Source: Chitinophagaceae bacterium
GTDB lineage: Bacteria; Bacteroidota; Bacteroidia; Chitinophagales; Chitinophagaceae
Assembly: GCA_021299955.1 (NCBI GenBank)
Contig: JAJTFQ010000025.1
Coordinates: 1 to 35,652 of the forward strand
Direction of reading: 5' to 3'
Length of the DNA: 35,652 bases
The translations under genes and the position numbers were made by a program. This document shows, piece by piece, positions 7,214 through 27,364 of this stretch. Positions within the stretch are counted from its first letter, which is position 1. Each line of letters opens with the position of its first letter. The notes beneath the pieces are model-generated. The model saw nothing but the letters and a program-made list of their open reading frames with translations. It was not told the origin of the DNA and did not search any database.

Positions 7214-7729
7214 TTGTATACCATGCACAATAACTGTAATCATTGCCCTGACCGGCGAACAGCTGTGCGCCCAAAAATGGGCATCGCGTCCTGGCTCCTG
7301 CTGGCGCTGTTACCGAAGTGTCCGTTCTGCATCATGGCGTTCACATCCACCGCCATGCTTTGCGGAGAGGGCGTCATGACCACATCCTCCCTCACACACA
7401 ACTCCCCACTCACGATCACGATCACGGCGGCACTGGGTATGTTGACCCTATTGGCGATCGTATTCAACAGAAGAGGGGTAAAAACCATCTACGCGCTTTT
7501 ATTCTCCATCCCCGGACTGTTCATGATCATGTTCAGCGTGATCCGCCAGGGTGGACAACCGCTCTATTATTCCGGCACCCTGCTGCTGTTTGTGGGTGTA
7601 TGGATGAACGGCAGTTTACCCTGGTTATGGAAGAATATGTTCCCCGGCGGGGGCCGTCTCGGCTTCCAACGCATATATAAATACTTAAATGGTTCCGCCC
7701 AGGTGTCTGGAGAAACACGACGGAACTGA
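7214..7729 (+). CDS. Small integral membrane protein with CNHC and CPFC motifs
   Basis: A 171-residue protein of no family I can name with certainty. A short N-terminal segment carries CNHC (residues 8-11), then a first membrane helix ends in LLPKCPFCIMAF, followed by a Cys in AMLCGEG and about three more hydrophobic helices (TITAALGMLTLLAIVF, IYALLFSIPGLFMIMF, YYSGTLLLFVGVWM). The Cys pair at the membrane edge recalls MerC/MerT-like or thiol-redox membrane proteins. It ends 26 bases before coxM on the same strand and may share its transcript. A role in metal or redox chemistry for CO dehydrogenase is only an inference from position. An alternative start at 7223 would also keep all motifs. 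Confidence 0.65.
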   Translation: MYTMHNNCNHCPDRRTAVRPKMGIASWLLLALLPKCPFCIMAFTSTAMLCGEGVMTTSSLTHNSPLTITITAALGMLTLLAIVFNRRGVKTIYALLFSIPGLFMIMFSVIRQGGQPLYYSGTLLLFVGVWMNGSLPWLWKNMFPGGGRLGFQRIYKYLNGSAQVSGETRRN

Positions 7730-7755: not shown

Positions 7756-8628
7756 ATGATTGCTCAGTCATTCAACTACGAATCACCAGCCACGCTGGCT
7801 GAGGCGATCGCCCTGCTCAACGAGCACGGAGATGAAGCCAAAGTGCTTTCTGGCGGACACAGCCTCATTCCAATGATGAAGCTGAGGTTTGCGACCCCGT
7901 CGTATCTCATCGACATCAACCGGATCCCGGGATTGTCCGAAATTGTCGAGGATGTGGACGGCACGATCCACATCGGCGCCCTGGTCAGGGAGTCGCAACT
8001 GGAACACTCGGAACTGCTCGGCAGACATTTTCCGATCTTCAAGGATGTCACCAAACTCATTGCAGATCCTCAGGTGCGTAACATGGGTACCCTGGGTGGT
8101 AACCTGGCGCATGGCGACGCAGCAAACGACCATCCGGCGGTGATGATCGCCTTGCGGGCTTCTGTGATCATCACGGGTGCTGATGGAGAACGTTCCGTTC
8201 CGATCGATGATTTCTTTTATGGTTTCTATATGACGGCCATCCAGCAAGGCGAGATCCTGACAGAGATCCGTTTGCCGGTTCCGCCCAAGGGTACGGGCAA
8301 TGCGTATCACAAGCTGGAACGTAAAGTTGGCGATTACGCCACTTCCGGAGTTGCGGTACAGATCACGCTGGATGAATCTGGCGTGGTCACGGCGGCAGGT
8401 ATCGGACTGACCAATGTCAATCCTGTTCCGCTGAGGGCTGTCCGCAGCGAAGAAGCGCTGATCGGCAAACCGCTGAGCGACGAAACCATTGAACTTGCCG
8501 CTCGCTTCGCTTCGGAAGATTGCAGCCCCAGCACTGATCTGCGCGGATCTGAAGAATACAAGCGCCACGTGACCGGAGTGCTGGTCAAGCGGATGATCAA
8601 AAAGGCCGCTGAAAGAGCTCAGTCTTAA
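7756..8628 (+). CDS. coxM: CO dehydrogenase medium (FAD) subunit
   Basis: The flavin subunit of the molybdenum hydroxylase, 290 residues, passing electrons from the iron-sulfur subunit to quinone or another acceptor. FAD-binding motifs are seen at LSGGHSLIPMMKLR (about residues 33-46, the AGGHS-type loop) and MGTLGGNLAHGDAANDHPA (about 110-128, the TxGG-type loop). The C-terminal CO-dehydrogenase-flavoprotein domain follows. Its length nearly equals that of classical CoxM. It begins the M-S-L order with 27 and 30 base gaps to the next genes. Alone it could belong to any xanthine dehydrogenase-type enzyme; the form I assignment comes from coxL. Confidence 0.95.
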   Translation: MIAQSFNYESPATLAEAIALLNEHGDEAKVLSGGHSLIPMMKLRFATPSYLIDINRIPGLSEIVEDVDGTIHIGALVRESQLEHSELLGRHFPIFKDVTKLIADPQVRNMGTLGGNLAHGDAANDHPAVMIALRASVIITGADGERSVPIDDFFYGFYMTAIQQGEILTEIRLPVPPKGTGNAYHKLERKVGDYATSGVAVQITLDESGVVTAAGIGLTNVNPVPLRAVRSEEALIGKPLSDETIELAARFASEDCSPSTDLRGSEEYKRHVTGVLVKRMIKKAAERAQS

Positions 8629-8655
8629 ATATTAAATCGTAGAAACAATATAAAT

Positions 8656-9162
8656 ATGACTAGGAAGATATCAGTCACCGTCAACGGTACAAAACATGAA
8701 CTGGAAGTAGAACCCAGGCTCCTGCTCGTGCACATGATCCGCGAGGTCCTCAACATGACCGGCACCCATATCGGATGCGATACCAGCAGCTGCGGTGCCT
8801 GCACCATTCTGCTGGATGGCAAGAGCATCAAGAGTTGCACCGTGCTGGCCGTTCAGGCCGATGGGCATAGCCTCACCACCATCGAGGGACTTGCCCCCGA
8901 GGGAGGTCCGCTCCACCCGCTCCAGGACGGCTTCAAGGAAAACCATGGTCTTCACTGTGGATTCTGCACCCCGGGCATGATCATGCGTTGCGTAGAGCTC
9001 CTCGAGCACAACAACAACCCGACGGAGGAAGAGATCCGTTGGGGCATCTCCGGCAATCTCTGCCGCTGCACCGGATATAACAACATCGTCAAGGCCGTCC
9101 AGTGGGCGGGTGCGAAGATGCGTGGGGAAGAGACCCCTTCCACTGAGCCCGAGTTCGTCTGA
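8656..9162 (+). CDS. coxS: CO dehydrogenase small (2Fe-2S) subunit
   Basis: A 168-residue subunit with two [2Fe-2S] clusters carrying electrons from the molybdenum site to FAD. The N-terminal plant-ferredoxin-type domain has [16 protein letters not shown] (about residues 40-55). The C-terminal four-helix domain has [11 protein letters not shown] (about 99-109) and [10 protein letters not shown] (about 135-144). All eight cluster cysteines are present. The start codon is preceded by the AU-rich leader ACAATATAAATATG, a pattern repeated at other gene starts in this island. Confidence 0.97.
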
Positions 9163-9192
9163 TCCCATCATTCAACACATAAATTCATCATC

Positions 9193-11559
9193 ATGATTCA
9201 ATGTAAGACTTCGAAGTCCATCGGAGGGATGGGACACTCCCTGAAACGCAAGGAGGACGCCCGATTCATCCAGGGGAAAGGCAACTACGTCGATGACGTG
9301 AAGCTGCCCGGCATGCTGTATATGGACATCGTACGCAGTCCATACGCATATGCCAAGATCAAGAAAATCAACATCGAAGAGGCCATGAAAGTGCCCGGTG
9401 TTGTTGCCGTCGTTACCGGTCGTGACCTGGAGAAATACAACCTCCACTGGATGCCCACGCTAATGAGCGACACGCAGATGGTACTGCCCACGGACACCGT
9501 GATGTACCAAAGCCAGGAGGTCGCCGCCGTCATCGCCACCACCAAGTACGCCGCGCGCGACGGACGCGAGGCCGTGATAGTGGAATACGAGCCCATGAAG
9601 CCGGTCATCGACCCTTTCAAGGCCCTTGATCCTTCTGCTCCGGTATTGAGGACAGACAAAGAAGGCAAGACAGACAACCATATTTGGAACTGGAAGGTGG
9701 GCGATAAGGAAAAAACCGACAAACTGTTCGAAACGGCAGACATCGTCGTGAAAGAACAGATGCATATCCCCCGTATCCATGTGGCATCGATCGAAACCTG
9801 CGGTTGCGTAGCTGACTACGACAAGGTGAACAATCACCTGACGATGTACATGACCACGCAGGCGCCCCATGCCATCCGTACCGTGATCGCGCTGGTAGCC
9901 GGCCATGTAGGCCTCACTGAAGAGAAGGTTCGCGTGATCGCGCCGGACATCGGAGGTGGCTTCGGTGGTAAAGTGCCCGTTTATCCGGGATATGTGATCG
10001 CCATCGCTGTCTCATTCCTGGTGGGCAAGCCGGTCAAGTGGATCGAAGACCGCAGTGAAAACCTGCAGGCTGACAGCTTCGCACGGGATTACCATATCAC
10101 GGCGGAAATGGCCGGCACGAAGGACGGCAAGATCCTCGGTACCCGCTTCAAGATCCTCGCCGACCATGGTTACACGGATGCGTCCGCCAACCCGTCGAAG
10201 TTCCCCACCGGCATGTTCTCTATTGCCACCGGTAGTTATGATTATGACACGACCTACATGGAGTGTGATGCCGTATACACCAACAAACCCCCGGGAGGTG
10301 TGGCCTATCGCTGTTCCTTCCGCGTGACCGAGGCTGTCCATGCCATCGAGCGGATCACTGACAGATATGCCCTCGAGATCGGAAAAGATCCTGCAGATCT
10401 GAGGATGCAGAACTTCATCAAGAAAGAAGATTTCCCCTGGAAATCCCCGACCGGATGGATCTATGATTCCGGTGATTACCATGCTGGTCTGGAAAAAGCC
10501 ATGCAGGCAGTCAACTACCATGATCTGCGCAGAGAGCAGGCTGAAAAGCGTTCTCGGGGCGAACTGATGGGCATCGGCCTATCGACCTTCACAGAGATCG
10601 TAGGTGCAGGTCCTTCCAAGGACTTCGATATCCTCGGCATCAAGATGTTCGACAGTGCTGAGATCCGCGTGCATCCCACCGGCAAGGCCATCGCCCGTTT
10701 CGGCACGAAGAGCCAGGGACAGGGTCATGAAACAACCTATGCCCAGATCATCGCGGAAGAACTTGGCATTCCTGCAGAGAACATTGCGATCGAAGAAGGA
10801 GATACGGACACTGCACCTTACGGACTCGGCACATACGCCAGTCGCAGTACCCCGACCGCAGGTGCCGCTGCCGCCATGGCTGCACGCAAGTTGAGGGACA
10901 AGGCCCGCAAGATCGCCGCCTACCTGCTCGAGGTGAGTGAGGAGGACCTGGAATGGGAACCCGGCAAATTCAGCGTGAAAGGAGCTCCGGAGAAATCCAA
11001 GACCATCCAGGAGATCGTATTCGCCGCCTATACCAACCACCCGCAAGGGATGGAGGCCGGATTTGAAGCCACCCACTACTACGATCCCCCGAACCTTACC
11101 TTCCCCTCAGGCGCCTATATCTGCGTGGTGGACATCGACCGCGAAACATGTGAGATCAAAGTCAGAAGGTTCGTCGCCATCGATGATTGCGGGAACATCA
11201 TCAACCCGATGATCGTGCAGGGTCAGGTCCATGGTGGTCTCACCCAGGGCATCGCCCCCGCGATGTACGAAGAACTCATCTATGACGAGTCCGGGAATAT
11301 CCTGAATGGTACGCTCATGGACTACCTCGTACCGACGGCTGTTGAGTCGCCCAACTGGGAGACCGGTCACACGGTAACCCCCTCCCCTCACCATCCGATC
11401 GGTGCCAAGGGCGTGGGAGAATCCCCGACCGTCGGTGCACCTCCTGCGATCGCGAATGCCATCGTGGATGCACTTTCGCCGTTTGGCATCACACATCTGG
11501 ACATCCCCATCACGCCCTATAAGATCTTCAAGGCGCTGAAGGAAAAGCAGGTGTTCTGA
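9193..11559 (+). CDS. coxL: Form I [MoCu] CO dehydrogenase large subunit
   Basis: The catalytic subunit, 788 residues, oxidising CO with water to CO2, two electrons and two protons at a Cu-S-Mo centre bound to molybdopterin cytosine dinucleotide. The N-terminal ald_Xan_dh_C a/b hammerhead begins about residue 15; GGGFGGK lies near residue 255. The loop VAYRCSFR holds Cys374, equivalent to Oligotropha Cys388, which binds copper. This AYxCSFR sequence separates form I (true CO dehydrogenase) from form II and from xanthine dehydrogenases (AYRGAGR or others). The catalytic glutamate is in GVGESP (Glu743). No substitution was seen in these sites. The closing stretch of the operon's structural part is followed by a hairpin. 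Confidence is high for form I by motif; CO oxidation itself is inferred. Confidence 0.96.
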   Translation: MIQCKTSKSIGGMGHSLKRKEDARFIQGKGNYVDDVKLPGMLYMDIVRSPYAYAKIKKINIEEAMKVPGVVAVVTGRDLEKYNLHWMPTLMSDTQMVLPTDTVMYQSQEVAAVIATTKYAARDGREAVIVEYEPMKPVIDPFKALDPSAPVLRTDKEGKTDNHIWNWKVGDKEKTDKLFETADIVVKEQMHIPRIHVASIETCGCVADYDKVNNHLTMYMTTQAPHAIRTVIALVAGHVGLTEEKVRVIAPDIGGGFGGKVPVYPGYVIAIAVSFLVGKPVKWIEDRSENLQADSFARDYHITAEMAGTKDGKILGTRFKILADHGYTDASANPSKFPTGMFSIATGSYDYDTTYMECDAVYTNKPPGGVAYRCSFRVTEAVHAIERITDRYALEIGKDPADLRMQNFIKKEDFPWKSPTGWIYDSGDYHAGLEKAMQAVNYHDLRREQAEKRSRGELMGIGLSTFTEIVGAGPSKDFDILGIKMFDSAEIRVHPTGKAIARFGTKSQGQGHETTYAQIIAEELGIPAENIAIEEGDTDTAPYGLGTYASRSTPTAGAAAAMAARKLRDKARKIAAYLLEVSEEDLEWEPGKFSVKGAPEKSKTIQEIVFAAYTNHPQGMEAGFEATHYYDPPNLTFPSGAYICVVDIDRETCEIKVRRFVAIDDCGNIINPMIVQGQVHGGLTQGIAPAMYEELIYDESGNILNGTLMDYLVPTAVESPNWETGHTVTPSPHHPIGAKGVGESPTVGAPPAIANAIVDALSPFGITHLDIPITPYKIFKALKEKQVF

Positions 11560-11581
11560 TGTATTGACAACCATCAATCAT

Positions 11582-11632
11582 AGGGCGGCAGACATCGCAA
11601 GTGAACTCACGAGCATGATGCGCTGCCGCCCT
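11582..11632 (+). terminator. Hairpin between coxL and coxG (candidate attenuator)
   Basis: AGGGCGGCAG (11582-11591) and CTGCCGCCCT (11623-11632) form perfect 10-base arms. The 31-base interior has a further small hairpin (GTG-AACT-CAC, 11601-11610). The T-rich but interrupted TTTCATTTAT follows. It could act as a partial terminator or as an mRNA-stabilising structure for the coxMSL part of the transcript. Confidence 0.6.
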
Positions 11633-11655
11633 TTCATTTATCTAAACAAATAAAT

Positions 11656-12180
11656 ATGAACGCAACGATATCAAAAACCTTCCAGGTGGCACATCCGATA
11701 GACACCGTATGGGCTAACATCACCAATCCTGAGAAGATCGTAGTATGCGTGCCGGGAGCCGCGCTCACGGAAATGATCGATGAAAATAACTTCAAGGGAG
11801 AAGTGGAACTGAAATTCGGTCCCGTGAAAGCGAAATATGGCGGCAGCATCAGTTTCCTGGAAAGGGACGTACAGCAGCACAGCATGAAAATGAAAGGCGC
11901 AGGTACCGACGTAAAAGGCAAGGGTGGCGCTGACATGCTGCTGGATGCGGTGCTGAAAGAAATTGAAGGTGCCACGGAAGTCAGTGTTACCATGGATGTC
12001 ACCGTTCAAGGTATGCTCGCCCAGTTCGGTAGCCGGCTTGTGACAGACGCGACCTCTCATGTATTCGATCAGTTCGTGAGCAATTTCAAGAATCAGCTCG
12101 ACGGCAAGGAAGTCAAGGGCGCACTCAGCGCGGGTGCCATGATGGGCAGCATGATCAAGGGAATGTTTGGCGGGAAATGA
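11656..12180 (+). CDS. coxG: CoxG, SRPBCC-fold CO dehydrogenase accessory protein
   Basis: A 174-residue SRPBCC/START-like protein of the CoxG family: N-terminal strand SKTFQVAHPIDTVWANI, then the diagnostic VPGAALTEM (near residue 35) and the DVTVQGMLAQFGSRLV segment. CoxG proteins have a hydrophobic pocket and have been reported in mycobacteria to bind menaquinone and link CO dehydrogenase to the membrane. After the fold (about residue 150) a tail rich in Gly, Met and Ala (SAGAMMGSMIKGMFGGK) could lie on a membrane. The gene starts after an ACAAATAAATATG leader and is 9 bases upstream of coxD. Identification is good; its role here is by analogy. Confidence 0.93.
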   Translation: MNATISKTFQVAHPIDTVWANITNPEKIVVCVPGAALTEMIDENNFKGEVELKFGPVKAKYGGSISFLERDVQQHSMKMKGAGTDVKGKGGADMLLDAVLKEIEGATEVSVTMDVTVQGMLAQFGSRLVTDATSHVFDQFVSNFKNQLDGKEVKGALSAGAMMGSMIKGMFGGK

Positions 12181-12189
12181 CGACCAACC

Positions 12190-13071
12190 ATGGATGAACT
12201 CAACAAACCGGAACAACTGGCAGCCCTGCTGGAGGAAGCACGTTATGTTGCCGATCCGGAGATGCTGACTTCTCTATTCCTGCTGCTGAAACTAAGGAAA
12301 CCCCTCCTGTTGGAAGGGCCCCCAGGTGTAGGAAAGACGGAATCCGCCCTTGTGCTGTCAACCATTTTGGACGTCCCGCTGATCCGGCTACAGTGCTATG
12401 AGGGACTGGATATCAGCTCAGCGGTGTACGAATGGAATTACCAGCGACAGTTGCTCTCCATCCGAATGCAGGAGTCATCCCAAATGACCACCGAAGAGAA
12501 GGAGCATAAGATCTTCGGTGAGGACTACCTGCTGAAACGTCCGTTGTTACAGGCCATCACGCAGGTTGACAAATCACCGGTGCTCTTGATCGACGAGCTC
12601 GATCGGAGTGATGAGGAGTTTGAAGCCTTCCTGCTCGAGTTGCTGTCTGCCTTCCAGATCACGATACCGGAACTGGGCACCGTGCGTGCCACCCACAAAC
12701 CTTACGTGATCCTGACCTCCAATCGGACCCGGGAACTGAGTGATGCCTTGAAACGCAGATGCCTTTACCATTGGATCGGATATCCGGGGCTGGAGAAGGA
12801 AATGTCGATCGTCAAAAAGCGGTTGCCCGGCATAGATGATGGTTTGCTTGAGGCCGTCGTCCGACAGGTACAGCAATTCCGGCAGCAGAAATTATCAAAG
12901 GTGCCCGGCATCAGTGAAACCATCGACTGGACAGAGAGTCTGGTGGCACTGGGTCATCGTTCGCTCAATCGGAAGGCAGTGGAAGATACACTGGGTGCCA
13001 TCCTGAAGTCGTCTGAAGACATCGAACTCGCACGTCAGCAAATGACCGAATCCGTTCCTTCGACCCCATGA
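12190..13071 (+). CDS. coxD: CoxD, MoxR-type AAA+ ATPase
   Basis: A 293-residue AAA+ ATPase, near the length of Oligotropha CoxD, thought to unfold or remodel apo-CO dehydrogenase during assembly of the Cu-S-Mo centre. Walker A is GPPGVGKT (residues 43-50), Walker B is LLIDELDR (about 133-140), sensor 1 is ILTSNRTREL, followed by the arginine-finger region LKRRCLYHW. It overlaps coxE by four bases (ATGA), so the two are translationally coupled, as expected for MoxR/VWA pairs. MoxR ATPases also mature other enzymes, but the neighbours make CoxD the clear choice. Confidence 0.95.
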   Translation: MDELNKPEQLAALLEEARYVADPEMLTSLFLLLKLRKPLLLEGPPGVGKTESALVLSTILDVPLIRLQCYEGLDISSAVYEWNYQRQLLSIRMQESSQMTTEEKEHKIFGEDYLLKRPLLQAITQVDKSPVLLIDELDRSDEEFEAFLLELLSAFQITIPELGTVRATHKPYVILTSNRTRELSDALKRRCLYHWIGYPGLEKEMSIVKKRLPGIDDGLLEAVVRQVQQFRQQKLSKVPGISETIDWTESLVALGHRSLNRKAVEDTLGAILKSSEDIELARQQMTESVPSTP

Positions 13072-14210
13072 AGATCCAGGCGTTCCAGACGGGCAGCCTT
13101 AGTGAAAGCATCGTTGCATTCGCGCAATACGTGCGAACGCACGGGCTTAATGTCGGCATTCAGGAAACCCAGGATGCCCTGCATGCCGCAGCACTGGGGT
13201 TGATGGCGGACAGGCAGCAGTTCAAACAGGCGCTGAAAGCCTTGTTCTGCACGACTCCGGAGGAATGCATGCTCTTCGATCAGTTGTTCGCCCAATTCTG
13301 GGACACCAATCCGATCGATCTGCATCAACGCAAAAGCGAAGTGAAGATTCAGGGCAGCGTGAATCGAAAAACGAAGGCATCTGTGGTCATGCTCGGACAA
13401 GGGCAGACTGCCGGACGTATTGACGAAGAAGCGCGGAATGTCAGCGGTGCACATGCAGCGGAAAGGCTAAAGAAAACGGACCTTTCCCTGCTCACGGAAA
13501 TGGAGGCCTCCCAACTGGAAGAGATCGCCCGGAGACTATGCCGGGAAATGGCCGTGAGGATGAGGCGAAGACTCAGGCAACATCCCAGAAAAGGGATGGC
13601 CGATCTGCGCAAGACCGTACGCCAAAGTATCTCAAGCGGGGGGGAACCCATACGGCTTTTCCACCGCATGAATACGCCGAAAAAGCAACGACTGATCGTA
13701 TTCCTCGATATCAGCGGATCAATGGATAAATACTCTCTCTTTCTGCTGAGATTTATTTGTGCGCTGCGCGATCATTTCAGGCAGTTGGAAGCCTTCGTAT
13801 TCAGTACAACCCTGAAACGGATCAGTCGCGGGCTGCAGGCCAGACAACTGGAAACCGTTGTAAGAAATATTCAGGATCACACTGACCACTGGAGCGGTGG
13901 GACACGCATTGGCGAATGCCTGCAACAGTTCATCGAAGTCTACGGAAAACGCATGCTCAACGGATCACCGACGATCATCGTGCTGAGTGACGGATTAGAT
14001 ACCGGAGATGTGTCTCGACTGGGGACGGCACTTTCTCAAATGCACGCGCGTTCAAAACGGATCGTATGGCTGAATCCGCTCAAGGGTATGAAGGATTATC
14101 AGCCACTGGCCCGGGGGATGCAGGCAGCCATGCCTTCGATTGATGATTTCAGATCGGCACATAACCTGGAAAGCCTGCTGGAACTCGAAAATATATTAAG
14201 TCATGCTTGA
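13068..14210 (+). CDS. coxE: CoxE, VWA-domain maturation protein
   Basis: A 380-residue protein with a helical N-terminal half (MadC/CoxE-like) and a C-terminal von Willebrand A domain. The MIDAS motif is FLDISGSMD (from about residue 211), with the later WSGGTRIG and VLSDGLDTGD elements completing the metal site. It works with CoxD: the AAA+ motor acts on its target through the VWA partner, probably during copper insertion into CO dehydrogenase. It overlaps the upstream gene by four and the downstream gene by eight bases, a tight operon. Confidence 0.94.
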   Translation: MKIQAFQTGSLSESIVAFAQYVRTHGLNVGIQETQDALHAAALGLMADRQQFKQALKALFCTTPEECMLFDQLFAQFWDTNPIDLHQRKSEVKIQGSVNRKTKASVVMLGQGQTAGRIDEEARNVSGAHAAERLKKTDLSLLTEMEASQLEEIARRLCREMAVRMRRRLRQHPRKGMADLRKTVRQSISSGGEPIRLFHRMNTPKKQRLIVFLDISGSMDKYSLFLLRFICALRDHFRQLEAFVFSTTLKRISRGLQARQLETVVRNIQDHTDHWSGGTRIGECLQQFIEVYGKRMLNGSPTIIVLSDGLDTGDVSRLGTALSQMHARSKRIVWLNPLKGMKDYQPLARGMQAAMPSIDDFRSAHNLESLLELENILSHA

Positions 14211-14664
14211 ATTCTACGAAAAGATTGCCAACCTTGTCCGTGCTCAAGCCCCGTTTGCAATGGTGCAGGTCGTCGGCCGACAGGCTCCTAGCAGTAGTAA
14301 GCTGGGCGACAAGGCCATCGTAAAAAAGAACGGCCGTATGGAAGGTTGGATTGGCGGGGGCTGCGTACAAGGCATTGTGCTGAAGGAATCAGCTGATGCC
14401 ATCGCCAGCGGAAAGCCCCGGTTGGTGAGGATTGGGAAGGAATTGCAGCACCATCAAAAACAGGAAGGCGTCATGGAATACCGAATGACCTGCCAGAGTG
14501 AAGGCCAGGTAGAGATATACATAGAACCCGTACTGCCCAGGCCACATCTCTTGGTGATCGGGAAATCAGAGATCGCAAAAGCCCTGGTCTCAGGGAGACA
14601 GAGACGAAGAATCACTGCTCCAGGCCTTGAAAAAAGAGTCTTCCTACGTGGGATTCATCTCTAG
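14203..14664 (+). pseudogene. coxF: coxF-like XdhC protein, 5' fragment
   Basis: The N-terminal XdhC/CoxI domain of a CO dehydrogenase maturation factor: GWIGGGCVQG at about residues 46-55 is the family's GG-C loop, and PRPHLLVIGKSEIAKAL (about 111-127) is the start of the Rossmann fold. After Val/Ser at about 14590 the frame becomes a basic tail without family resemblance (GRQRRRITAPG) and stops at 14664. The same stretch read in another frame gives SQGDRDEESLLQAL, the expected later part of the Rossmann domain. Compared with CoxI at 15084 about 50 residues are missing at this junction and the frame is shifted. It therefore appears to be the front half of a gene broken by an internal deletion, unless the assembly is wrong here. 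Confidence 0.8.
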
Positions 14665-15061
14665 TCGAAAAAAAGCTGGCACCATGTCTAACTACCTGCT
14701 CGACGCGGGTGTCGATCCGGCTTCGCTGGATCGTCTGCATACCCCTGCGGGGATAGATATTAACGCCAAGAAACCGGATGAAGTAGCGGTCAGTATCATG
14801 GCCGAAATTATCCGGGTCAAGAATAACCTCGACCTGTCTATCCCAACCGAATCTTCATCGGTCCTCGAAGAAGAAGCCCCTTCCTATTACATCAATCCGG
14901 TATGCGGGGTACCAGTGGATATGAAGCATCCAAAACATGTGATGCAATACGGGAAAGAAACCGTATATTTCTGTTGCGACGGGTGCAAGATCAAATTCGA
15001 AAAAGATCCGGATAAATATATGAAGGCAAGGGAGGCGGGACTTCCGCCTGAAGGCATGTAA
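14627..15061 (+). pseudogene. coxF: coxF-like protein, 3' fragment: XdhC C-terminus plus YHS domain
   Basis: In the frame that becomes open near 14588 the sequence continues the XdhC C-terminal domain (ALKKESSYVGFISSRKKAG, then DRLHTPAGIDINAKKPDEVA), and ends in a YHS-type domain (about 14880-15040) with INPVCGVPVD and YFCCDGCKIKFEKDP. The YHS cysteines suggest metal binding; copper is attractive since the pathway must deliver copper, but this is inference. The listed start is a TTG; a GTG at 14648 or an ATG at 14684 could start a shorter protein holding the YHS domain. Whether it is still translated is unknown. It precedes coxI by 22 bases. Confidence 0.75.
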
Positions 15062-15083
15062 CCTTATATTTAATTTGTTTTCC

Positions 15084-16241
15084 GTGAAAGAGTTGAAGGA
15101 AATTGTGATCGCCAGTGATGCCGCTCTCCGCAACGGACAACGAGTGGCACTCGCATCCGTCGTTCATCTCGACGGATCCTCCTATCGGAGACCGGGTGCG
15201 CGGATGCTGGTGACGGATGAAGGAGAGATGACCGGCGCGATCAGTGGTGGTTGTCTGGAAGGAGACGCTTTGCGGAAGGCCATGCATGCGATCAGCCAGG
15301 GTAATAACCGGCTCGTTACATACGATACCACCGATGAGGATGATATGTCAATCGGCATTCAGTTGGGTTGCGCGGGTGTCATTCAGGTGCTGTTCGAACC
15401 TGTCGATGTCAACCAACCTGACCATCCCATAGAACTCATCAGAAAAGCCCATGCCGTCAGGCAGGCCTCGGTGCTGGTGACGCTGTTCGATCTTTCCACC
15501 CGGCATGGCGTTCAGCCGGGCACCTGTCTGCTGATGGAATCGGACGGCAGGCTGACCGGAGATATTCCCGTTGCACATCTGCGGGATGAAATCATCGGTG
15601 AGATGACAGTAGTCATGCAACAGAAAAGATCTGTATTCAAGGAATACAGATCTGCGGCCGGTGCGATAACAGCCTTCATCGAATACCTGCGGCCGCCGGT
15701 ATCACTTGTCGTCGTCGGGGCAGGCAATGATGCCATACCCATGATGCAGTTCGCCGAAAATCTGGGATGGGACGTCCGCATAGTCGATGGCCGAAACACC
15801 CATGCGCGTCCGGAAAGATTCGTCGCCGCCTGCCAGGTGTTGGTCAGCAAACCAGAAGCCGTGCTGGATCAGATACCCATCGATGAGCGTACCGTTTTCG
15901 TGATGATGACGCATAACTACAACTACGACATGGCCATGCTGAAAGCCTTGTTGCAGACGGAGGTCCCGTACATCGGTATGCTGGGGCCGAAAAAGAAGCT
16001 GCAACGGATGCTGGACGACATGAAAGCCGAGGACTTCATCCCGGATGATAGCATGATGTCCAGGGTGTTCGGTCCGGCCGGACTCGAGATCGATGCGGAA
16101 ACACCGGAAGAAATTGCATTAAGCATCATCGCAGAGATACAGGTGGTTTTTGGGAAAAAGCCAGGAGGGATGCTGCGCGACAAAGCAGATGTGATCCATT
16201 CGAGAACCGATATCCGGATCGAGACCGTCAGGATCAAGTGA
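15084..16241 (+). CDS. coxI: CoxI, XdhC-family maturation protein
   Basis: An intact 385-residue XdhC/CoxI protein. Domains: N-terminal XdhC_CoxI with ISGGCLEGDALR (about residues 52-63), a middle Rossmann fold opening with VVVGAGNDAIPMMQF (about 209-223), and the C-terminal block PYIGMLGPKKKLQRML. XdhC proteins bind molybdenum cofactor and help sulfurate and insert it into their client enzyme, so this is expected to load CoxL. The start is uncertain: the GTG at 15084 (VKELKEIVIAS) fits the family, whereas the TTG at 15075 overlaps a -7-like TTTAATTTG. It serves as the reference for the deletion in the coxF-like gene before it. Confidence 0.93.
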   Translation: MKELKEIVIASDAALRNGQRVALASVVHLDGSSYRRPGARMLVTDEGEMTGAISGGCLEGDALRKAMHAISQGNNRLVTYDTTDEDDMSIGIQLGCAGVIQVLFEPVDVNQPDHPIELIRKAHAVRQASVLVTLFDLSTRHGVQPGTCLLMESDGRLTGDIPVAHLRDEIIGEMTVVMQQKRSVFKEYRSAAGAITAFIEYLRPPVSLVVVGAGNDAIPMMQFAENLGWDVRIVDGRNTHARPERFVAACQVLVSKPEAVLDQIPIDERTVFVMMTHNYNYDMAMLKALLQTEVPYIGMLGPKKKLQRMLDDMKAEDFIPDDSMMSRVFGPAGLEIDAETPEEIALSIIAEIQVVFGKKPGGMLRDKADVIHSRTDIRIETVRIK

Positions 16242-16389: not shown

Positions 16390-17370
16390 ATGATCGTCGA
16401 CGGTTTCAACAGGGTGCACGATTATCTGCGGATCTCCCTCACGGACAACTGCAATCTCCGTTGTTTCTATTGCATGCCCGAAGAGGAATATGAATTTACG
16501 CCGGCGAGTAAACTGATGCAGGCCGAAGAGATCGAAACCATCGCCAAAATTTTCGTCGCCAACGGTGTGAATAAGATCAGGCTGACCGGTGGTGAGCCGC
16601 TGGTCAGGAAAGATGCAGCAGACATCATCCGTCGATTGGGAGCCCTCGGTGTGCGACTGACACTTACCACCAATGGAACCCGGCTGCATGACTTCATGGA
16701 TGTCATCAAAGCCGCCGGCATTACCTCCCTCAACATAAGCCTGGATACCCTCGACAAGGATCGCTTTATGCTTATGACCCGCAGGGATCAATATGATCGG
16801 GTCAGGAGCAACATCGCACTGGCCATCCGCGAGGGACTGCATGTAAAAGTGAATGTCGTGGCCATGAAGGGTCTGAATGACGGAGAGATCGTTGATTTCA
16901 TCCGTTGGACGAAAGATGAGCCGATCCATGTCAGATTCATTGAGTTCATGCCCTTTAGCGGAAATAAATGGAACAGCGATCGCGTCATGACCTGGCAGCA
17001 GATCCTGGAAGTGGCTACGAATGCCTTTGATGTGCTTCCGCTGGAACGTGAGAAACACGAGACTGCGAAAAAATACATCATTCCCGGGCATCTCGGAACC
17101 TTCGCCGTCATCAGCACCATGAGTGCGCCGTTCTGCAGCGATTGCAATAGGATGCGGCTCACCGCAGATGGCAAGATGAAGAACTGCCTCTTTTCGACCA
17201 CAGAGACAGATCTGCTCACCCCACACCGGCAGGGCATGGATATTGTTCCGCTGATCTATCAAAGCATTCGGGATAAGCAGAAGGCACTGGGTGGACAATT
17301 CACCACCGACATGGAGAAGATCGAGACATCGAAACTAGAAAACCGCAGTATGATCACGATCGGGGGATGA
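16390..17370 (+). CDS. moaA: GTP 3',8-cyclase
   Basis: The first enzyme of molybdenum cofactor synthesis, a radical SAM protein that rearranges GTP to 3',8-cyclo-GTP. It has 326 residues: the CxxxCxxC SAM cluster at Cys21, Cys25 and Cys28 (CNLRCFYC), the GGEP motif in LTGGEPLVRKD, and the C-terminal cluster site APFCSDCNRMRL with the third Cys in KMKNCLFS. It ends in the essential Gly-Gly tail (ITIGG). All functional elements are present. A gap of 94 bases separates it from moeA. Confidence 0.97.
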   Translation: MIVDGFNRVHDYLRISLTDNCNLRCFYCMPEEEYEFTPASKLMQAEEIETIAKIFVANGVNKIRLTGGEPLVRKDAADIIRRLGALGVRLTLTTNGTRLHDFMDVIKAAGITSLNISLDTLDKDRFMLMTRRDQYDRVRSNIALAIREGLHVKVNVVAMKGLNDGEIVDFIRWTKDEPIHVRFIEFMPFSGNKWNSDRVMTWQQILEVATNAFDVLPLEREKHETAKKYIIPGHLGTFAVISTMSAPFCSDCNRMRLTADGKMKNCLFSTTETDLLTPHRQGMDIVPLIYQSIRDKQKALGGQFTTDMEKIETSKLENRSMITIGG

Positions 17371-17375
17371 ACGCA

Positions 17376-17389
17376 GATTTGCTCAAATC
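17376..17389. promoter_or_regulatory. Palindrome upstream of moeA
   Basis: GATTTG-CT-CAAATC, 6-base arms around two bases, five bases after the moaA stop codon. A -7-like TATCTTTA follows at 17442-17449. It may be an operator of a secondary promoter for the moeA-to-desulfurase operon; nothing in the sequence decides this. Confidence 0.3.
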
Positions 17390-17464
17390 GGCTGCTCAGT
17401 ATTTGAATGGGAATAATATACCCACTCGTCTTTCTCGACCCTATCTTTATTGATGATGGAAAAA

Positions 17465-18640
17465 ATGATCACCGTGGATCGGGCACTCGAGCTCATCTGT
17501 TCACATATCCGCCCTTTAGATGCGGAGATGAGCAAACTCACAGATGCAAGAGGCCTGGTGTTGGCTGAAGATATTTACTCGGCCTATGATATCCCGGCCT
17601 TCCCACAATCCGGGATGGACGGTTATGCTTTTTCATTTCAGGAAGGCTTAACATCCTATCTCATTGAAGGAGAAGTAGCGGCAGGAGATGCTCAGACTTT
17701 TTTATTATCTGCCGGTAAGGCTTCGAGGATATTCACCGGTGCGGCCGTCCCTCCGGGAGCGGATACTGTGCTGCCACAGGAAAAAGCGCAGATCACAGAT
17801 GGCAGGCTGGCATTCGATTCATCAGTCATCAAGAAAGGTGATAATGTCAGGCTTCCCGGATCCGAGATCGCAAAGGGATCACTGGCGTTGTCTGCAGGCG
17901 CTGTGCTGCATCCCGCGCGGATCGGTTTCCTCTCCGGCATAGGCATCGCTGAGGCAAAAGTGATCCCGTCTCCGAAGGTATCCATCATCGTAACCGGCAA
18001 TGAACTGCAACAGGCCGGTGAGCCACTGGGATACGGACAAGTATATGATTCTAATTCACCAATGCTAAAGGCCTGCCTGGAGCAACTGGGCATTCGGGAT
18101 ACTCATATTTATTTTTCAGGAGATATCCCGGAAAGATTGAACCAACTGCTCGATCTGGCCTTACAGACATCCGACCTGGTATTGATGACAGGCGGTGTCA
18201 GTGTGGGGGATTATGATTTCACCCTCGGTGCGTTTGAAGCCTGTGGGATCGTCAGTCATTTTCACAAGATCAGACAGAAGCCGGGCAAACCCATGCTCTT
18301 CGGAACCCGGAACCATCAGGCCGTGTACGGATTGCCCGGCAATCCAGCTTCCGTGCTTACCTGCTTCTACGAATATGTGCTACCGGCCATCAGCATCATG
18401 ACGGGGGATAAAAAAGATTTGAAGGTCAGACAAGCGAAGCTAAGTCATGCCCATCGCAAGCCGGCGGGACTGACCCATTTCCTGAAAGCAAAAAATGAGG
18501 GAGATTTCGTAACATTGAAGGGCGGTCAGGAATCCTACAAACTATCGTCCTACGCTGAAGCCAACTGCATCGCGGTATTGACGGAAGAAGCTACCGACTT
18601 CGCGGAAGGACAGCTCATCGATATTCATATCATCCCATAA
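17465..18640 (+). CDS. moeA: Molybdopterin molybdenumtransferase
   Basis: Inserts molybdate into adenylylated molybdopterin to form active cofactor. From the ATG at 17465 it has 391 residues, normal for MoeA. Motifs: PAFPQSGMDGYAF near residue 45, IFTGAAVPPGADTV near 93, VYDSNSPMLKACL near 193, TGGVSVGDYDF near 240 and GLPGNPASVLTCFYEY near 285. Upstream ATG codons at 17450, 17453 and 17456 are in frame, but the -7-like box (TATCTTTA, 17442-17449) would place transcription start beyond them, and MITVDRALEL is the family's usual N-terminus. It is 9 bases upstream of the TauE gene. Confidence 0.95.
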   Translation: MITVDRALELICSHIRPLDAEMSKLTDARGLVLAEDIYSAYDIPAFPQSGMDGYAFSFQEGLTSYLIEGEVAAGDAQTFLLSAGKASRIFTGAAVPPGADTVLPQEKAQITDGRLAFDSSVIKKGDNVRLPGSEIAKGSLALSAGAVLHPARIGFLSGIGIAEAKVIPSPKVSIIVTGNELQQAGEPLGYGQVYDSNSPMLKACLEQLGIRDTHIYFSGDIPERLNQLLDLALQTSDLVLMTGGVSVGDYDFTLGAFEACGIVSHFHKIRQKPGKPMLFGTRNHQAVYGLPGNPASVLTCFYEYVLPAISIMTGDKKDLKVRQAKLSHAHRKPAGLTHFLKAKNEGDFVTLKGGQESYKLSSYAEANCIAVLTEEATDFAEGQLIDIHIIP

Positions 18641-18649
18641 GTCGAAGTC

Positions 18650-19381
18650 ATGTCCGTCGAGATCCTTTTTCTGGTACTGCTATTCATCGTGGCCTTCCTC
18701 TATGCCTCGGTGGGTCACGGCGGCGCCAGCGGCTATCTTGCCCTGATGGCCTTGTTCAGCATGTCGCCGGCCGTGATGAGGCCCACGGCGCTGCTGCTCA
18801 ACCTCTTCGTCTCCCTGTCGGCATTCATCCTGTTCTATCGGAGTGGTCATTTCAAGTGGAAGATATTCCTGCCATTCGCCCTTGCATCCATTCCCTGCTC
18901 CTTCCTCGGCGGGATGATCGAGATGGACGCGGCCATCTATAAAAAATTACTGGGTATCCTGTTGCTGATCCCTGTGGGACGCATGTTGATGAGCACTAAC
19001 GGTGACGAACAAACGAAAAATATTCCGGATGTAAAATTATCGCTGCTGATCGGCGCCATCATAGGATTTTTATCCGGTCTGATCGGTATTGGCGGCGGGA
19101 TCATTCTGTCGCCTGTCTTGTTGTTGTTGTCCTGGACCACCCAGAAACAGACGGCGGCCATCAGCGCGCTGTTCATTTTCGTAAATTCGGTGTCGGGACT
19201 AGCCGGACAATTCTCGCAGGGGATCGAACTTCAACCGGACATGTTCGCTTATGTGGGTGTAGCCTTTGCCGGTGGATCAGCAGGCGCCTGGATGGGATCT
19301 GCGAAACTCGATCACCGGGCACTGAAGTATCTGCTCTCCATCGTACTGACCGTAGCTTCCCTCAAACTCCTGCTCACCTAA
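18650..19381 (+). CDS. TauE/SafE-family membrane permease
   Basis: A 243-residue integral membrane protein of the TauE/SafE (sulfite exporter, DUF81) family with about eight hydrophobic segments. The two family repeats are visible as ASVGHGGASGYLAL near the N-terminus and GLIGIGGGIILSPVLLL in the second half. Members export sulfite, sulfoacetate or other organosulfur anions, and many are unassigned. It lies inside the molybdenum cofactor operon with 9-base gaps on both sides, so the substrate may relate to sulfur or oxyanion handling in cofactor synthesis. This functional link is inferred from position only. Confidence 0.9.
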   Translation: MSVEILFLVLLFIVAFLYASVGHGGASGYLALMALFSMSPAVMRPTALLLNLFVSLSAFILFYRSGHFKWKIFLPFALASIPCSFLGGMIEMDAAIYKKLLGILLLIPVGRMLMSTNGDEQTKNIPDVKLSLLIGAIIGFLSGLIGIGGGIILSPVLLLLSWTTQKQTAAISALFIFVNSVSGLAGQFSQGIELQPDMFAYVGVAFAGGSAGAWMGSAKLDHRALKYLLSIVLTVASLKLLLT

Positions 19382-19390
19382 TTACTTGCT

Positions 19391-19621
19391 ATGATTGATG
19401 TCAGATTTTTTGGACAATTGACGGATCGAACCGGATGTAACACTGTAAGTCTCGAAGATCAGCTTGATACGGATCACCTGATCCGACAGTTAAATGAACG
19501 GTTCCCCGCGCTAGCCGGCGCCAAATACATGCTCGCGGTAGATAACAAGATGATCCAGGCTAATACCATCCTATCTGACGGTTGCAGGGTAGACCTGCTG
19601 CCGCCCTTCTCCGGTGGTTGA
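19391..19621 (+). CDS. moaD: Molybdopterin synthase small subunit
   Basis: A 76-residue ubiquitin-like sulfur carrier ending in the essential Gly-Gly (LLPPFSGG), which becomes a thiocarboxylate and donates sulfur to precursor Z. It starts MIDVRFFGQLTDRTG, as is usual for MoaD, and contains DGCRVDLLPPF near the C-terminus. It is followed after 16 bases by the MoeB-like activating enzyme that adenylates its C-terminus, and MoaE, its partner, is next in line. Confidence 0.95.
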   Translation: MIDVRFFGQLTDRTGCNTVSLEDQLDTDHLIRQLNERFPALAGAKYMLAVDNKMIQANTILSDGCRVDLLPPFSGG

Positions 19622-19637
19622 GATAACGTAAGCGCAG

Positions 19638-20750: not shown

Positions 20751-20759
20751 ATATAAGCG

Positions 20760-21203
20760 ATGGAACCCAGGAAACCCAAGAACATTTTCATGGAAGGTCC
20801 GATATCTCCGACCTTTATCGCAGACAGCATTGCGAAACATGAAGGCAAGACATCCATTGGCGGACATGGCATCTTCCTGGGCCAGGTACGCGCCGATGAG
20901 ATCGATGGAAAGCCGGTGACCGGCATCGAGTATACAGCGCAGTCGGAGATGGCACTGGAGCGTATGGCGCAGATCCGGGAAGACATCTTTGCCAAGTATC
21001 CGCTGACCTGTATGCATGTACATCACAGCCTGGGCATCGTGCCTGCAGGCGGGCTCTGCCTCTTTGTATTTACTTCTTCCAAACACCGGAAGGCCGCGAT
21101 GGATGCGTGCTCGGAATGTGTGGAGCGCCTAAAGGCAGAACTTCCGATCTGGGGCAGGGAGATCTTCAGTGATGAGTCATACCAGTGGAAAGTCAATCAG
21201 TAA
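20760..21203 (+). CDS. moaE: Molybdopterin synthase large subunit
   Basis: The catalytic subunit of molybdopterin synthase, 147 residues, binding the MoaD tail and transferring sulfur to precursor Z. Family motifs include GGHGIFLGQVR, HVHHSLGIVPAG and SSKHRKAAMDAC. The lysine equivalent to E. coli Lys119 is in ERLKAE (Lys125), but the position of E. coli Lys126 (WKRE) is Gly132 (IWGREIF). This may be a lineage trait. The start codon is preceded by AAATAAATATAAGCGATG, the AU-rich leader seen elsewhere in the island. Confidence 0.93.
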   Translation: MEPRKPKNIFMEGPISPTFIADSIAKHEGKTSIGGHGIFLGQVRADEIDGKPVTGIEYTAQSEMALERMAQIREDIFAKYPLTCMHVHHSLGIVPAGGLCLFVFTSSKHRKAAMDACSECVERLKAELPIWGREIFSDESYQWKVNQ

Positions 21204-21219
21204 TTCTTAAAACGGCTAC

Positions 21220-22131
21220 ATGGTCAATATCACCCATAAATCCAGCACGCTTCGCGAAGCCATAGCGACGGCCATCCTGAAAGTATCGAAACAGGAAACC
21301 ATCGATACGATCATGGCAAGGAAGGTTCCGAAAGGCGATGTCTTCGAATTCAGCAGGGCCGCCGGTTTGCTGGCCTGCAAGAAAACCTACGAGGTGATCC
21401 CTGACTGCCATCCATTGCCGGTGGAGTTCACTTCCATCCAACATGAGATCTCGGGACTGGAAGTGCATATCCGGGTTGAAGTGCACACTGTCTACAAGAC
21501 CGGAGTGGAAGTGGAAGCCATGCATGGCGCAGCGGTCACGGCCCTGACGATGTACGATATGCTCAAACCCATCGATGACGGCATTGAGATCTCCACCATC
21601 CGGCTGGAGAAGAAGAAGGGCGGGAAATCAGACATCAAATATGCCTACCCCGATACTGTACGTGTGGCGGTCATAACCTGCAGCGACAGCGTCAGCAAGG
21701 GACTCAACACGGATAAAAGCGGAGATGTCATACAGGAACGACTTGGCAAACACCGGCTCAGCGTCTCCTGCCGGCTTTGCATCCCGGATGAATTCAACGT
21801 CATCCAATCTACCGCCGCCAGGCTCATCGAAGAAGGTTATCAACTCATTCTCTTCACCGGCGGCACAGGACTTTCGCCCAGGGATGTAACTCCGGACGCG
21901 ATCCGACCGCTGATCGAACGAGAAGTACCCGGCATCATGGAAGTGGCCCGCGACTACGGCCAGCAACGGACACCCTACGCCATGCTCAGCCGCGGCATCG
22001 CCGGCTTTGCGGGAGACGCCCTGCTGATCACGATGCCGGGATCTCCGAGGGGCGCGGCAGAAAGCATGGATGCTATTTTTCCATACATATTGCATGTGTT
22101 TCGGGTGAAGGAAGGCGTGAGACACGATTGA
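21220..22131 (+). CDS. moaCB: Bifunctional MoaC-MoaB/MogA fusion
   Basis: A 303-residue fusion. The N-terminal MoaC domain (1-138) converts 3',8-cyclo-GTP to cyclic pyranopterin monophosphate: it shows DCHPLPVEF, VEVEAMHGAAVTALTMYD and the KKGGKSD end. The C-terminal MoaB/MogA domain (from about 145) adenylylates molybdopterin before molybdenum insertion: VAVITCSDSVSKG, FTGGTGLSPRDVTPDA and MPGSPRGAAESM. Such fusions are known in bacteria. With moaA, moaD, moaE, moeB and moeA this completes synthesis of the mononucleotide cofactor. It nearly abuts the following desulfurase gene. Confidence 0.95.
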   Translation: MVNITHKSSTLREAIATAILKVSKQETIDTIMARKVPKGDVFEFSRAAGLLACKKTYEVIPDCHPLPVEFTSIQHEISGLEVHIRVEVHTVYKTGVEVEAMHGAAVTALTMYDMLKPIDDGIEISTIRLEKKKGGKSDIKYAYPDTVRVAVITCSDSVSKGLNTDKSGDVIQERLGKHRLSVSCRLCIPDEFNVIQSTAARLIEEGYQLILFTGGTGLSPRDVTPDAIRPLIEREVPGIMEVARDYGQQRTPYAMLSRGIAGFAGDALLITMPGSPRGAAESMDAIFPYILHVFRVKEGVRHD

Positions 22132-22139
22132 AAATAAAT

Positions 22140-23288
22140 ATGAGCGGCTATCCCATATATCTCGACTACAATGCAACCACGCCCTGCGATCCGCAGGTGG
22201 TGGAGGCCATGTTGCCCTTCTTCTCGACACATTTCGGGAATGCGGCCAGTAAAAGCCATGCGCATGGCTGGTATGCAGAAGAAGCCGTAGTCATGGCGCG
22301 GGAGGATATAGCGAGCCTTATCGGGGCATCACCGAATGAGATCATATTTACTTCGGGTGCCACAGAATCGATCAACCTCGCGATGCGCGGTCTGGCGGAA
22401 GTGCAGCCATCTCCTCACGGTCATATCATCACCGTCGCCACGGAACACAAGGCCGTTCTGGATGTGTGTGAGCATCTGCGATCAAAGGGAATGGATGTCA
22501 CGGTACTGCCGGTGAATGGAGCCGGACATGTCGACCTGGACCAGCTGCGGGATGAGATCCGCCCTGATACGCTGATGATCGCCGCGATGTATGCGAATAA
22601 CGAAACCGGTCTCTTCCATCCCATCCGGGAGATCTCACAAATTTCCCGCGAGGCTGGTGTGCTCTTTTTCTGTGATGCAAACCAGGCGGTGGGAAAGATC
22701 CCCGTAAATGCCCGGTCGGAAGGCATCGACATGATGGCCTTCTCCGCACACAAGATGTACGGACCGAAAGGCGCGGGTGTATTGTACATCGGAAAAAGGG
22801 ATAAAAAGATCGACCTTGCCCCGCAAATTTTCGGCGGTGGGCACGAACGTAAACTGCGCAGCGGCACACTCAATGTCCCGGGCATCGTGGGGATGGGAAA
22901 GGCGGCGCTCATTTGCCGAGATCGGATGGCGGATGAATCAGTGCGTCTGGCCGGCCTGCGCGACAGGCTCCGCAACAGCCTGTTGAATATCGATGGTGTT
23001 CGTCTGAATGGCGACGAAAATAATATGCTGGCTCATGTCGCCAACCTTTGTTTCGACATCAACGGAGGCGACCGGCTGCTGAAGATGATCTCACGGATGG
23101 TTTCGGTGTCTAACGGATCCGCCTGTTCATCGGTGACACAGGCGCCATCGCATGTCCTCAAGGCGATGGGACTGACGGATATGCAGGCCCTTTCATCCAT
23201 ACGTTTCAGTCTTGGACGATTCACGTCGGAAGCGGAGATCGACATCGTCACTTCCGCCGTCTGTGATGCGATCGCCCGGCTGCGATAG
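22140..23288 (+). CDS. Cysteine desulfurase (NifS/IscS family)
   Basis: A PLP-dependent enzyme of 382 residues taking sulfur from cysteine. Motifs: YLDYNATTPCDPQV at the N-terminus, TSGATESINLAMRG, ATEHKAVLD, YANNETG, the PLP lysine in FSAHKMYGPKG, and the persulfide Cys in SNGSACSSVTQAP near residue 326. It lies 8 bases after moaCB and begins after AAAATAAATATG, so it appears to belong to the operon. Its likely job is to feed sulfur to the rhodanese/MoaD system or to the bridging sulfide of CO dehydrogenase; a general iron-sulfur role cannot be ruled out. An upstream TTG start at 22128 is less likely. Confidence 0.93.
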   Translation: MSGYPIYLDYNATTPCDPQVVEAMLPFFSTHFGNAASKSHAHGWYAEEAVVMAREDIASLIGASPNEIIFTSGATESINLAMRGLAEVQPSPHGHIITVATEHKAVLDVCEHLRSKGMDVTVLPVNGAGHVDLDQLRDEIRPDTLMIAAMYANNETGLFHPIREISQISREAGVLFFCDANQAVGKIPVNARSEGIDMMAFSAHKMYGPKGAGVLYIGKRDKKIDLAPQIFGGGHERKLRSGTLNVPGIVGMGKAALICRDRMADESVRLAGLRDRLRNSLLNIDGVRLNGDENNMLAHVANLCFDINGGDRLLKMISRMVSVSNGSACSSVTQAPSHVLKAMGLTDMQALSSIRFSLGRFTSEAEIDIVTSAVCDAIARLR

Positions 23289-26895: not shown

Positions 26896-27357
26896 TCAGG
26901 AAAACAGCCTCGCATCTGGCCTGATCTCCCGCACATCGACCAGTTTGACATGACGGAGGAACCGCACATGCCCGGGATGCAGGATCAGGTTTCGCTGGAC
27001 CGGCAGTACAGCTGAGGGGGCCAGAAAACCTATGAAGTCAGGATCTGACAGCCATTCCTTGCCCATTTGCTTCAAGCCCAGGTGATCTGGTTTTCGCCAG
27101 TCAGCCGGTAATTCATCCATAGGTATCGACCGGATGGGGGCGGCATCCGACACCTCGATATACGCCAGGTAAAGCAGGTCCGGCAGATCTCGAACGTCGG
27201 CATGCACCAGCACTTCAAGCATGGCCAGCGCCGGATTTTCGCTGGCATATAAGGCATGTGTTCCGACCGGATTCCAGCGGCCGCCCACCAGCCAGGCGCC
27301 GGTGCCGGACAGATCCGAAGCGCGTACACGGGAGGTTACGATCCGATAATACAACAT
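26896..27357 (-). CDS. RES-domain toxin
   Basis: A 153-residue RES-family toxin, an NAD+ phosphorylase/ADP-ribosyltransferase-like enzyme that kills or stops growth by consuming NAD+. The family Arg-Glu-Ser residues are seen as YRIVTSR at the N-terminus, LYASENPALAMLE (Glu) and PSAVLPVQRNLILHP (Ser). GRWNPVGTHALYA is the typical substrate-pocket region. It starts 7 bases after the stop codon of its antitoxin, on the same strand. Family membership is clear; activity is inferred. Confidence 0.92.
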   Translation of the reverse strand: MLYYRIVTSRVRASDLSGTGAWLVGGRWNPVGTHALYASENPALAMLEVLVHADVRDLPDLLYLAYIEVSDAAPIRSIPMDELPADWRKPDHLGLKQMGKEWLSDPDFIGFLAPSAVLPVQRNLILHPGHVRFLRHVKLVDVREIRPDARLFS

Positions 27358-27364
27358 GACGGAC

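Follow-up and report, generated by a model that had tools for sequence, protein, structure and literature searches.

The contig JAJTFQ010000025.1 of a Chitinophagaceae bacterium (assembly GCA_021299955.1), analysed here over its whole 35,652 nucleotides (nt) and called the window below, carries what is virtually certainly the operon of a form I [MoCu] carbon monoxide (CO) dehydrogenase, preceded by a gene for a small membrane protein named here PKCPxC after its motif. The explanation that we favour, at a probability of roughly 0.6, is that the operon encodes this enzyme and that PKCPxC supplies its copper. The Mo-S-Cu site of CO dehydrogenase is what enables aerobic bacteria to consume atmospheric CO, and an enzyme-linked membrane protein combined with two interchangeable metal-domain tails on CoxF offers a concrete and testable copper route. 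If this is true, PKCPxC would provide the copper entry step that has been missing, handing the metal to a YHS or a CopZ-like tail on CoxF, and if the wider family serves tyrosinases and amine oxidases too, Bacteroidota would have in it a general module for copper provision.

The form I identity rests on the active-site motif, the equivalog score, the gene order and the tree position. The active-site loop of CoxL aligns as AYRCSFR, conforming to AYxCSFR with its Cys at C374; the Cys loop is present in 94 of the 108 rows of the CoxL alignment and YRGAGR in 14. The glutamate motif is GVGESP, with E743. An earlier note on this DNA had pointed to both motifs, which are indeed present, as separating form I from form II; judged from the alignment, the Cys loop is the discriminating feature, whereas Glu743 is not diagnostic, as form II rows also have Glu at this position. 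The TIGR02416 equivalog model scores CoxL at 1230.6 bits against a cut-off of 991.15, and the closest solved structure, 8uem, is a CoxL structure (1072 bits). Open reading frame (ORF) calls and Pfam place coxM, coxS and coxL in this order, all on the + strand. A phylogeny of the large subunit, which the note had suggested as a check, put CoxL among 90 form I rows separated from 13 outgroup rows (SH-like approximate likelihood ratio test, SH-aLRT, 100) and nested it in a 35-row Bacteroidota group (support 86). This 103-row tree is a quick one, with SH-aLRT values without bootstraps and with long branches flagged; it omits L005, L009, L016, L017 and rows shorter than 650 amino acids (aa), and identical rows were merged. 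A form II identity of CoxL is ruled out by the TIGR02416 score, the tree placement and the Cys loop. KGVAESP replaces KGVGESP, with the Glu kept, in 12 of the 108 rows (L035, L037, L038, L040, L041-L044, L047, L049, L051 and L054), which come from Flavobacteriaceae, SAR324 and one Deltaproteobacteria metagenome-assembled genome (MAG).

The earlier note had described the operon at 7756-16241 as three subunits with coxG, coxD, coxE and coxI on one strand, and both ORFs and Pfam agree, all of these genes being on the + strand. Its inventory was right for the genes listed but overlooked the interrupted coxF, the gene at 7223-7729 before coxM and the molybdenum-cofactor genes that carry the cluster on to 23288. 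The full cluster reads:

7223..7729, + strand: PKCPxC membrane protein, 168 aa, with Cys at 5, 8, 33, 36 and 47 and hydrophobic helices, directly 5' of coxM
7756..8628, + strand: coxM, FAD subunit (Pfam FAD_binding_5, CO_deh_flav_C)
8656..9162, + strand: coxS, 2x[2Fe-2S] subunit (Pfam Fer2, Fer2_2)
9193..11559, + strand: coxL, form I Mo/Cu large subunit (TIGR02416, motifs, tree)
11656..12180, + strand: coxG (PF06240 COXG, 4.1e-21)
12190..13071, + strand: coxD, AAA+ ATPase (Pfam; 53% identity to its positional counterpart in the Afipia carboxidovorans cluster, L012)
13068..14210, + strand: coxE, VWA protein (VWA_CoxE, 4.3e-55)
14203..14664, + strand: N-terminal piece of the interrupted coxF gene, XdhC family (XdhC_CoxI, 5.1e-17)
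14627..15061, + strand: C-terminal piece of coxF with a YHS domain (XdhC_C, 6.6e-17; YHS, 1.8e-9)
15075..16241, + strand: coxI, XdhC/CoxI family (Pfam)
16390..17370, + strand: moaA (Radical_SAM, Mob_synth_C)
17450..18640, + strand: moeA (Pfam)
18650..19381, + strand: TauE/SafE family membrane protein, at the same position in L019, L095, L096 and L202
19638..20750, + strand: ThiF/MoeB-like (Pfam)
20760..21203, + strand: moaE (Pfam)
21220..22131, + strand: moaC fused to a MoCF_biosynth domain (Pfam)
22128..23288, + strand: class V aminotransferase, cysteine-desulfurase-like by family (Pfam)

Over 16390-23288, where the TauE/SafE gene sits between moeA and the ThiF-like gene, the order is largely the same in L019, L095, L096 and L202.

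The ORF at 7223-7729 stops 26 nt before coxM, and its product of 168 residues holds five Cys. Pfam gave nothing at cut-off for this protein (best YibE_F, E 0.0066) and NCBIfam no match at E 0.1. In alignment A2 (31 rows), P31, K32, C33, P34, C36 and N129 are invariant. Where rows of both the cox and the non-cox types are compared, P31, K32, C33 and C36 are common to 31 of 31. The PKC..C motif lies in a hydrophobic N-terminal helix and homology runs along the full length, which places these proteins in one family; hhalign joined the cox-type and other-type profiles at 98.5% probability (E 2e-15, 124 columns). Two AlphaFold models predict helices at 21-29 and 34-47 on either side of the motif, and then at about 62-81, 87-108 and 111-129, and the positive residues suggest that both protein ends face the cytoplasm.

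PKCPxC and the cox genes travel together. Among the best 80 named loci, 33 are Bacteroidota-type (Rhodothermus included), and 28 of these carry a PKCPxC homologue in the fetched flank: directly before coxM in 19, on the same strand within 1.5 kb in three (L028, L030, L031), and about 5 kb upstream on the opposite strand, beside moeA, in six Flavobacteriaceae. These 28 include L016, of which only a C-terminal part is present, at the end of a contig, and L027, which has masked bases. Of the five remaining loci, L017 and L042 end too near coxM for a verdict, L047 has its PKCPxC gene on another contig of the genome, and L029 and L050 belong to genomes with no match. L045 gave a motif match in a minus-strand frame of 617 aa that was treated as chance. 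In one Flavobacteriaceae genome PKCPxC sits on a separate contig (L207, G874:C72), adjoined by a moeA-like gene and with a TauE/SafE-like gene close by, both of these genes being named by eye.

The genome samples gave the same picture within the family. Out of 60 related genomes seven have coxL and eight have PKCPxC, namely those seven and G022, where no coxL matched and PKCPxC is adjoined by coxM and coxS on a short contig. The family sample of 394 genomes yielded 17 with coxL (E<=1e-230) and 20 with a strong PKCPxC match (E<=1e-30), including all 17, and in each of the 17 PKCPxC and coxL share contig and strand. The three other strong matches lie in partial cox loci: in G799 PKCPxC stands beside coxM and coxS; in G462, at a contig end, its neighbours are coxI and a MobA-like gene; and in G515 (L202, G515:C237) it precedes a CoxF fragment, coxI and molybdenum-cofactor genes with coxMSLGDE missing, possibly a deletion scar or an assembly collapse. 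Fisher P for coxL with PKCPxC is 4e-27 in the 394 genomes and 2e-8 in the 60, both uncorrected for relatedness. Weaker PKCPxC matches occur in 24 further family genomes. In the phylum sample (395 genomes), strong PKCPxC matches were found in three of eight coxL genomes, G000, G358 and G429, the last match spanning a stop codon. Since no more than nine candidates per genome for PKCPxC and two for coxL were scored in the phylum and family samples, some matches may have been missed. Outside Bacteroidota, 46 of 47 coxL genomes gave no PKCPxC match, and the idea that PKCPxC is a cox gene in every phylum was therefore rejected; the sole match, in G833 (Myxococcaceae), is weak (E 2.8e-5) and has the motif PKCPMC.

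Homologues remote from cox genes point to copper. The non-cox set, at E<=1e-6, comprises 16 genomes, 13 from the family sample and three from the phylum sample; outside it fall 11 of the 24 weak family matches (E 1.5e-5 to 8e-4) and four phylum-sample matches without the [KR]CPxC motif. A tyrosinase-family match exists somewhere in 11 of the 16 genomes, and nine have a tyrosinase or haemocyanin-like gene no more than 3 kb from the homologue (165 to 2569 nt between matches), against a chance expectation of 0.018 genomes for a tyrosinase at this distance, calculated with rounded genome sizes. Since genera g25 and g204 each appear twice, the nine represent fewer than nine independent events. The neighbour is of haemocyanin type in G773 and G577, in G437 the homologue gene overlaps its tyrosinase/haemocyanin-like neighbour, and three of the nine homologues are fused to a SCO1-SenC domain (G539, G622, G798). 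A copper amine oxidase (2.6e-161) adjoins the homologue of G642, whose motif is PKCSAC, bringing the copper-enzyme neighbours to 10 of 16. The same copper-enzyme queries found no match at any of 30 MerC-type loci taken as a control, 28 of which come from one genus. The fused form, of about 545-551 aa with the PKCPxC membrane domain C-terminal to SCO1-SenC, is encoded near tyrosinase genes in L161, L162 and L163.

What CO dehydrogenase, tyrosinase, haemocyanin-like proteins, copper amine oxidase and SCO1 have in common is copper, and on the simplest reading the membrane protein furnishes it to the enzyme encoded nearby. We put at even odds the proposal that the Cu(I) of the Mo-S-Cu site comes from PKCPxC, as its gene neighbours suggest. 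The broader proposal is of an undescribed family in Bacteroidota whose small membrane proteins would each provide copper to an enzyme of their own, be it CO dehydrogenase, tyrosinase, a haemocyanin-like oxidase or copper amine oxidase; we hold it tentatively, at marginally less than even. Cu(I) would bind the PKCPxC motif in the first membrane helix, pass to the N-terminal CxxC, predicted to lie in the cytoplasm, and move next to the YHS tail of CoxF; CoxF, with CoxE and CoxD, would then set the copper on Cys374 beside the molybdenum sulfur. Copper binding, transport direction, topology and every hand-off are steps that we infer.

The paired Cys could also serve a membrane redox or sulfur relay, reducing Cu(II) or passing sulfane sulfur for the Mo=S ligand. 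TauE/SafE and cysteine-desulfurase-like genes stand in the same cluster, and the L096 homologue matches the small redox family NF045645 weakly (E 3.4e-5, below cut-off). Tyrosinase and copper amine oxidase, on the other hand, need copper and neither molybdenum nor sulfane sulfur, so that copper is the factor shared by the neighbours of the homologues, and we consider a relay unlikely. In the same L096 homologue (17823-18278, minus strand) it is the Cys-bearing N-terminal part that gives the match to NF045645, the DVU_1557 redox family, along with one to DUF7479 (E 2.8e-5), also below cut-off.

CoxF is the point at which the proposed route would reach the enzyme. According to excerpts of PMC4240915, CoxF supplies copper to CO dehydrogenase in Oligotropha, and enzyme purified from coxE and coxF mutants was essentially copper-free; the assembly model there has CoxF deliver copper, and these excerpts name no membrane copper importer. 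In the window, the CoxF-like XdhC gene between coxE and coxI is split into two ORFs, 14203-14664 and 14627-15061, and alignment to L016, L095 and L096 reveals a 146-nt internal gap leading to a frameshift, so this assembly has no intact coxF in the cluster. The gap matters, since copper insertion in Oligotropha depends on CoxF; it may be genuine or have arisen in assembly. The contigs of L098 and L099, from the two genomes with the closest CoxL, stop before coxF. A decaying operon, with CoxF disrupted and the enzyme not matured in this species, would fit the gap and frameshift, the patchy distribution of coxL (7 of 37 genomes in the genus, the window genome included) and the related G515 locus without coxMSLGDE between PKCPxC and the CoxF piece. 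The remaining cox ORFs are unbroken, though, the genome is a MAG in 219 contigs in which an assembly error is possible, and coxF is a single open frame in L016, L095 and L096, as it is in L018, L019 and L024; we regard decay as improbable.

The tails of CoxF are of two kinds. Pfam finds a YHS tail on all six full CoxF proteins scanned, which had been chosen by their tails (L011, L018, L037, L085, L088, L096), and on the window fragment. A YHS regular expression was abandoned as a tail test after missing nearly all CoxF proteins, and YHS is claimed from Pfam alone. An HMA tail replaces YHS in all three PKCPxC-free Bacteroidota loci read (G062, G116, G237), and the tail in G237 resembles CopZ (TIGR00003 7e-14, CopZ model 4e-13, both below curated cut-offs). 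These HMA-tailed CoxF proteins are encoded at L143:10786-11844 (CopZ-like), L199:16865-18115 and L200:16877-18022.

PKCPxC might instead be a membrane anchor for CO dehydrogenase or its maturation complex, with no metal function. It is a small, helical membrane protein, and CoxG has been proposed as a recruiter of this kind in Oligotropha (excerpts of PMC4240915); yet coxG is also present in the window, and P31, K32, C33 and C36 recur in 31 of 31 rows, though these were partly gathered by motif, which leaves an anchor distinctly improbable. That this is a plain known form I operon with an unrelated passenger upstream would agree with the published form I coxL of Bacteroidota (excerpts of PMC6794299, PMC13203968 and PMC13240472) but is highly improbable given the co-occurrence in the 394 genomes (uncorrected for relatedness) and the recurrent positions in the 33 loci.

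Several observations weigh against copper supply by PKCPxC. The genomes of L029 (Saprospiraceae) and L050 (Rhodothermus) have cox genes and no PKCPxC match, five phylum-sample coxL genomes (G062, G067, G108, G116, G237) are without a strong one, and the cox loci of G062, G116 and G237, when read, held no PKCPxC; because these seven are without a match, PKCPxC is not indispensable. The CoxF of L029 has a YHS-like tail, so the pairing of YHS with PKCPxC is not strict, and YHS tails occur without PKCPxC in other phyla. For six of the 16 non-cox genomes no link to copper is seen nearby: no copper enzyme was found among the neighbours read in G534, G591, G347 and G142 (the last two having a tyrosinase elsewhere in the genome), and G764 and G787, checked for tyrosinase only, have none. 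The invariance of the motif partly reflects selection, as the rows of A2 and A3 were partly picked by motif pattern, although most cox-linked rows were first found by tblastn without it. Both AlphaFold models are middling (pLDDT, the predicted local distance difference test, 68.6 and 73.4), and a Foldseek search of the PDB with the first returned 64 matches at E<=10 and none at E<=0.001. Finally, with CoxF broken in this assembly, the window operon may not work.

The operon itself is not new at phylum level. The earlier note had doubted whether the lineage was documented, a doubt settled by the literature: Bacteroidota are named among the phyla with coxL by Cordero et al. 2019 (PMC6794299) and in two 2026 surveys (PMC13203968, PMC13240472), as far as the portions consulted go, and form I coxL in Bacteroidota is therefore already known. 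In the open-licence literature, a partly weak search found no title on such a membrane protein with CO dehydrogenase or tyrosinase, nor does the phrase 'YHS domain' occur in the six papers checked for it, and the PKCPxC copper module is, as far as found, undescribed. In the phylum sample coxL exceeds the cut-off in 8 of 395 genomes; in the family sample it does so in 16 of 394, and one more genome has a partial match. Among the best 80 loci, the nearest named CoxL is that of a Flavipsychrobacter MAG (94% identity), and the best outside Bacteroidota has 79%. The host assembly (3.0 Mb, 76% complete, 219 contigs, the window being contig C41) has two haem-copper oxidase matches, so that CO-derived electrons could be respired, and trace CO oxidation by the organism is plausible from its gene content. 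A RuBisCO-large-family match lies at G000:C34:2578-3408 (1.1e-63) in the window genome, one of two out of 12 cox genomes with a match to this family, the other being G797. RES-domain and Xre/MbcA/ParS-type genes, a toxin-antitoxin-like pair, occupy 26896-27889 of the window on the minus strand.

Compared with known systems, PKCPxC recalls the MerC family (PF03203), likewise small membrane proteins with paired Cys. The Pfam match is weak in five of six stand-alone homologues (E 0.003 to 0.8, 10.7 to 18.5 bits) and absent in L030; one SCO1-fused homologue reached E 1.6e-4 (22.7 bits), and the gathering score of 27.6 was never attained. In hhalign against MerC proteins of related genomes, the cox-type profile reached 1.6% and the other-type profile 28%. 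PKCPxC was rejected as a MerC on this profile comparison. The domain of SCO1/SenC copper chaperones is fused to three PKCPxC homologues, whereas the window protein is without it. Afipia (Oligotropha) carboxidovorans pHCG3 and Thermomicrobium roseum share the coxM-S-L order and the catalytic motifs, window CoxL being 58% and 68% identical to theirs, respectively. Afipia likewise has coxD, E, F and G, but its CoxF has neither a YHS nor an HMA tail, unlike the YHS-bearing window piece; in the fetched stretch of Thermomicrobium, coxMSL are followed by one XdhC gene with YHS. Unlike the window, neither fetched stretch holds a protein with the PKCPxC motif. Other Bacteroidota cox loci (Flavihumibacter stibioxidans, F. 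profundi, Niastella vici, Saprospiraceae MAGs) have CoxL 81-92% identical; coxF is unsplit in L018, L019 and L024, in contrast to the window, and nearly all of these Bacteroidota loci have PKCPxC upstream, then coxM, S and L, as in the window.

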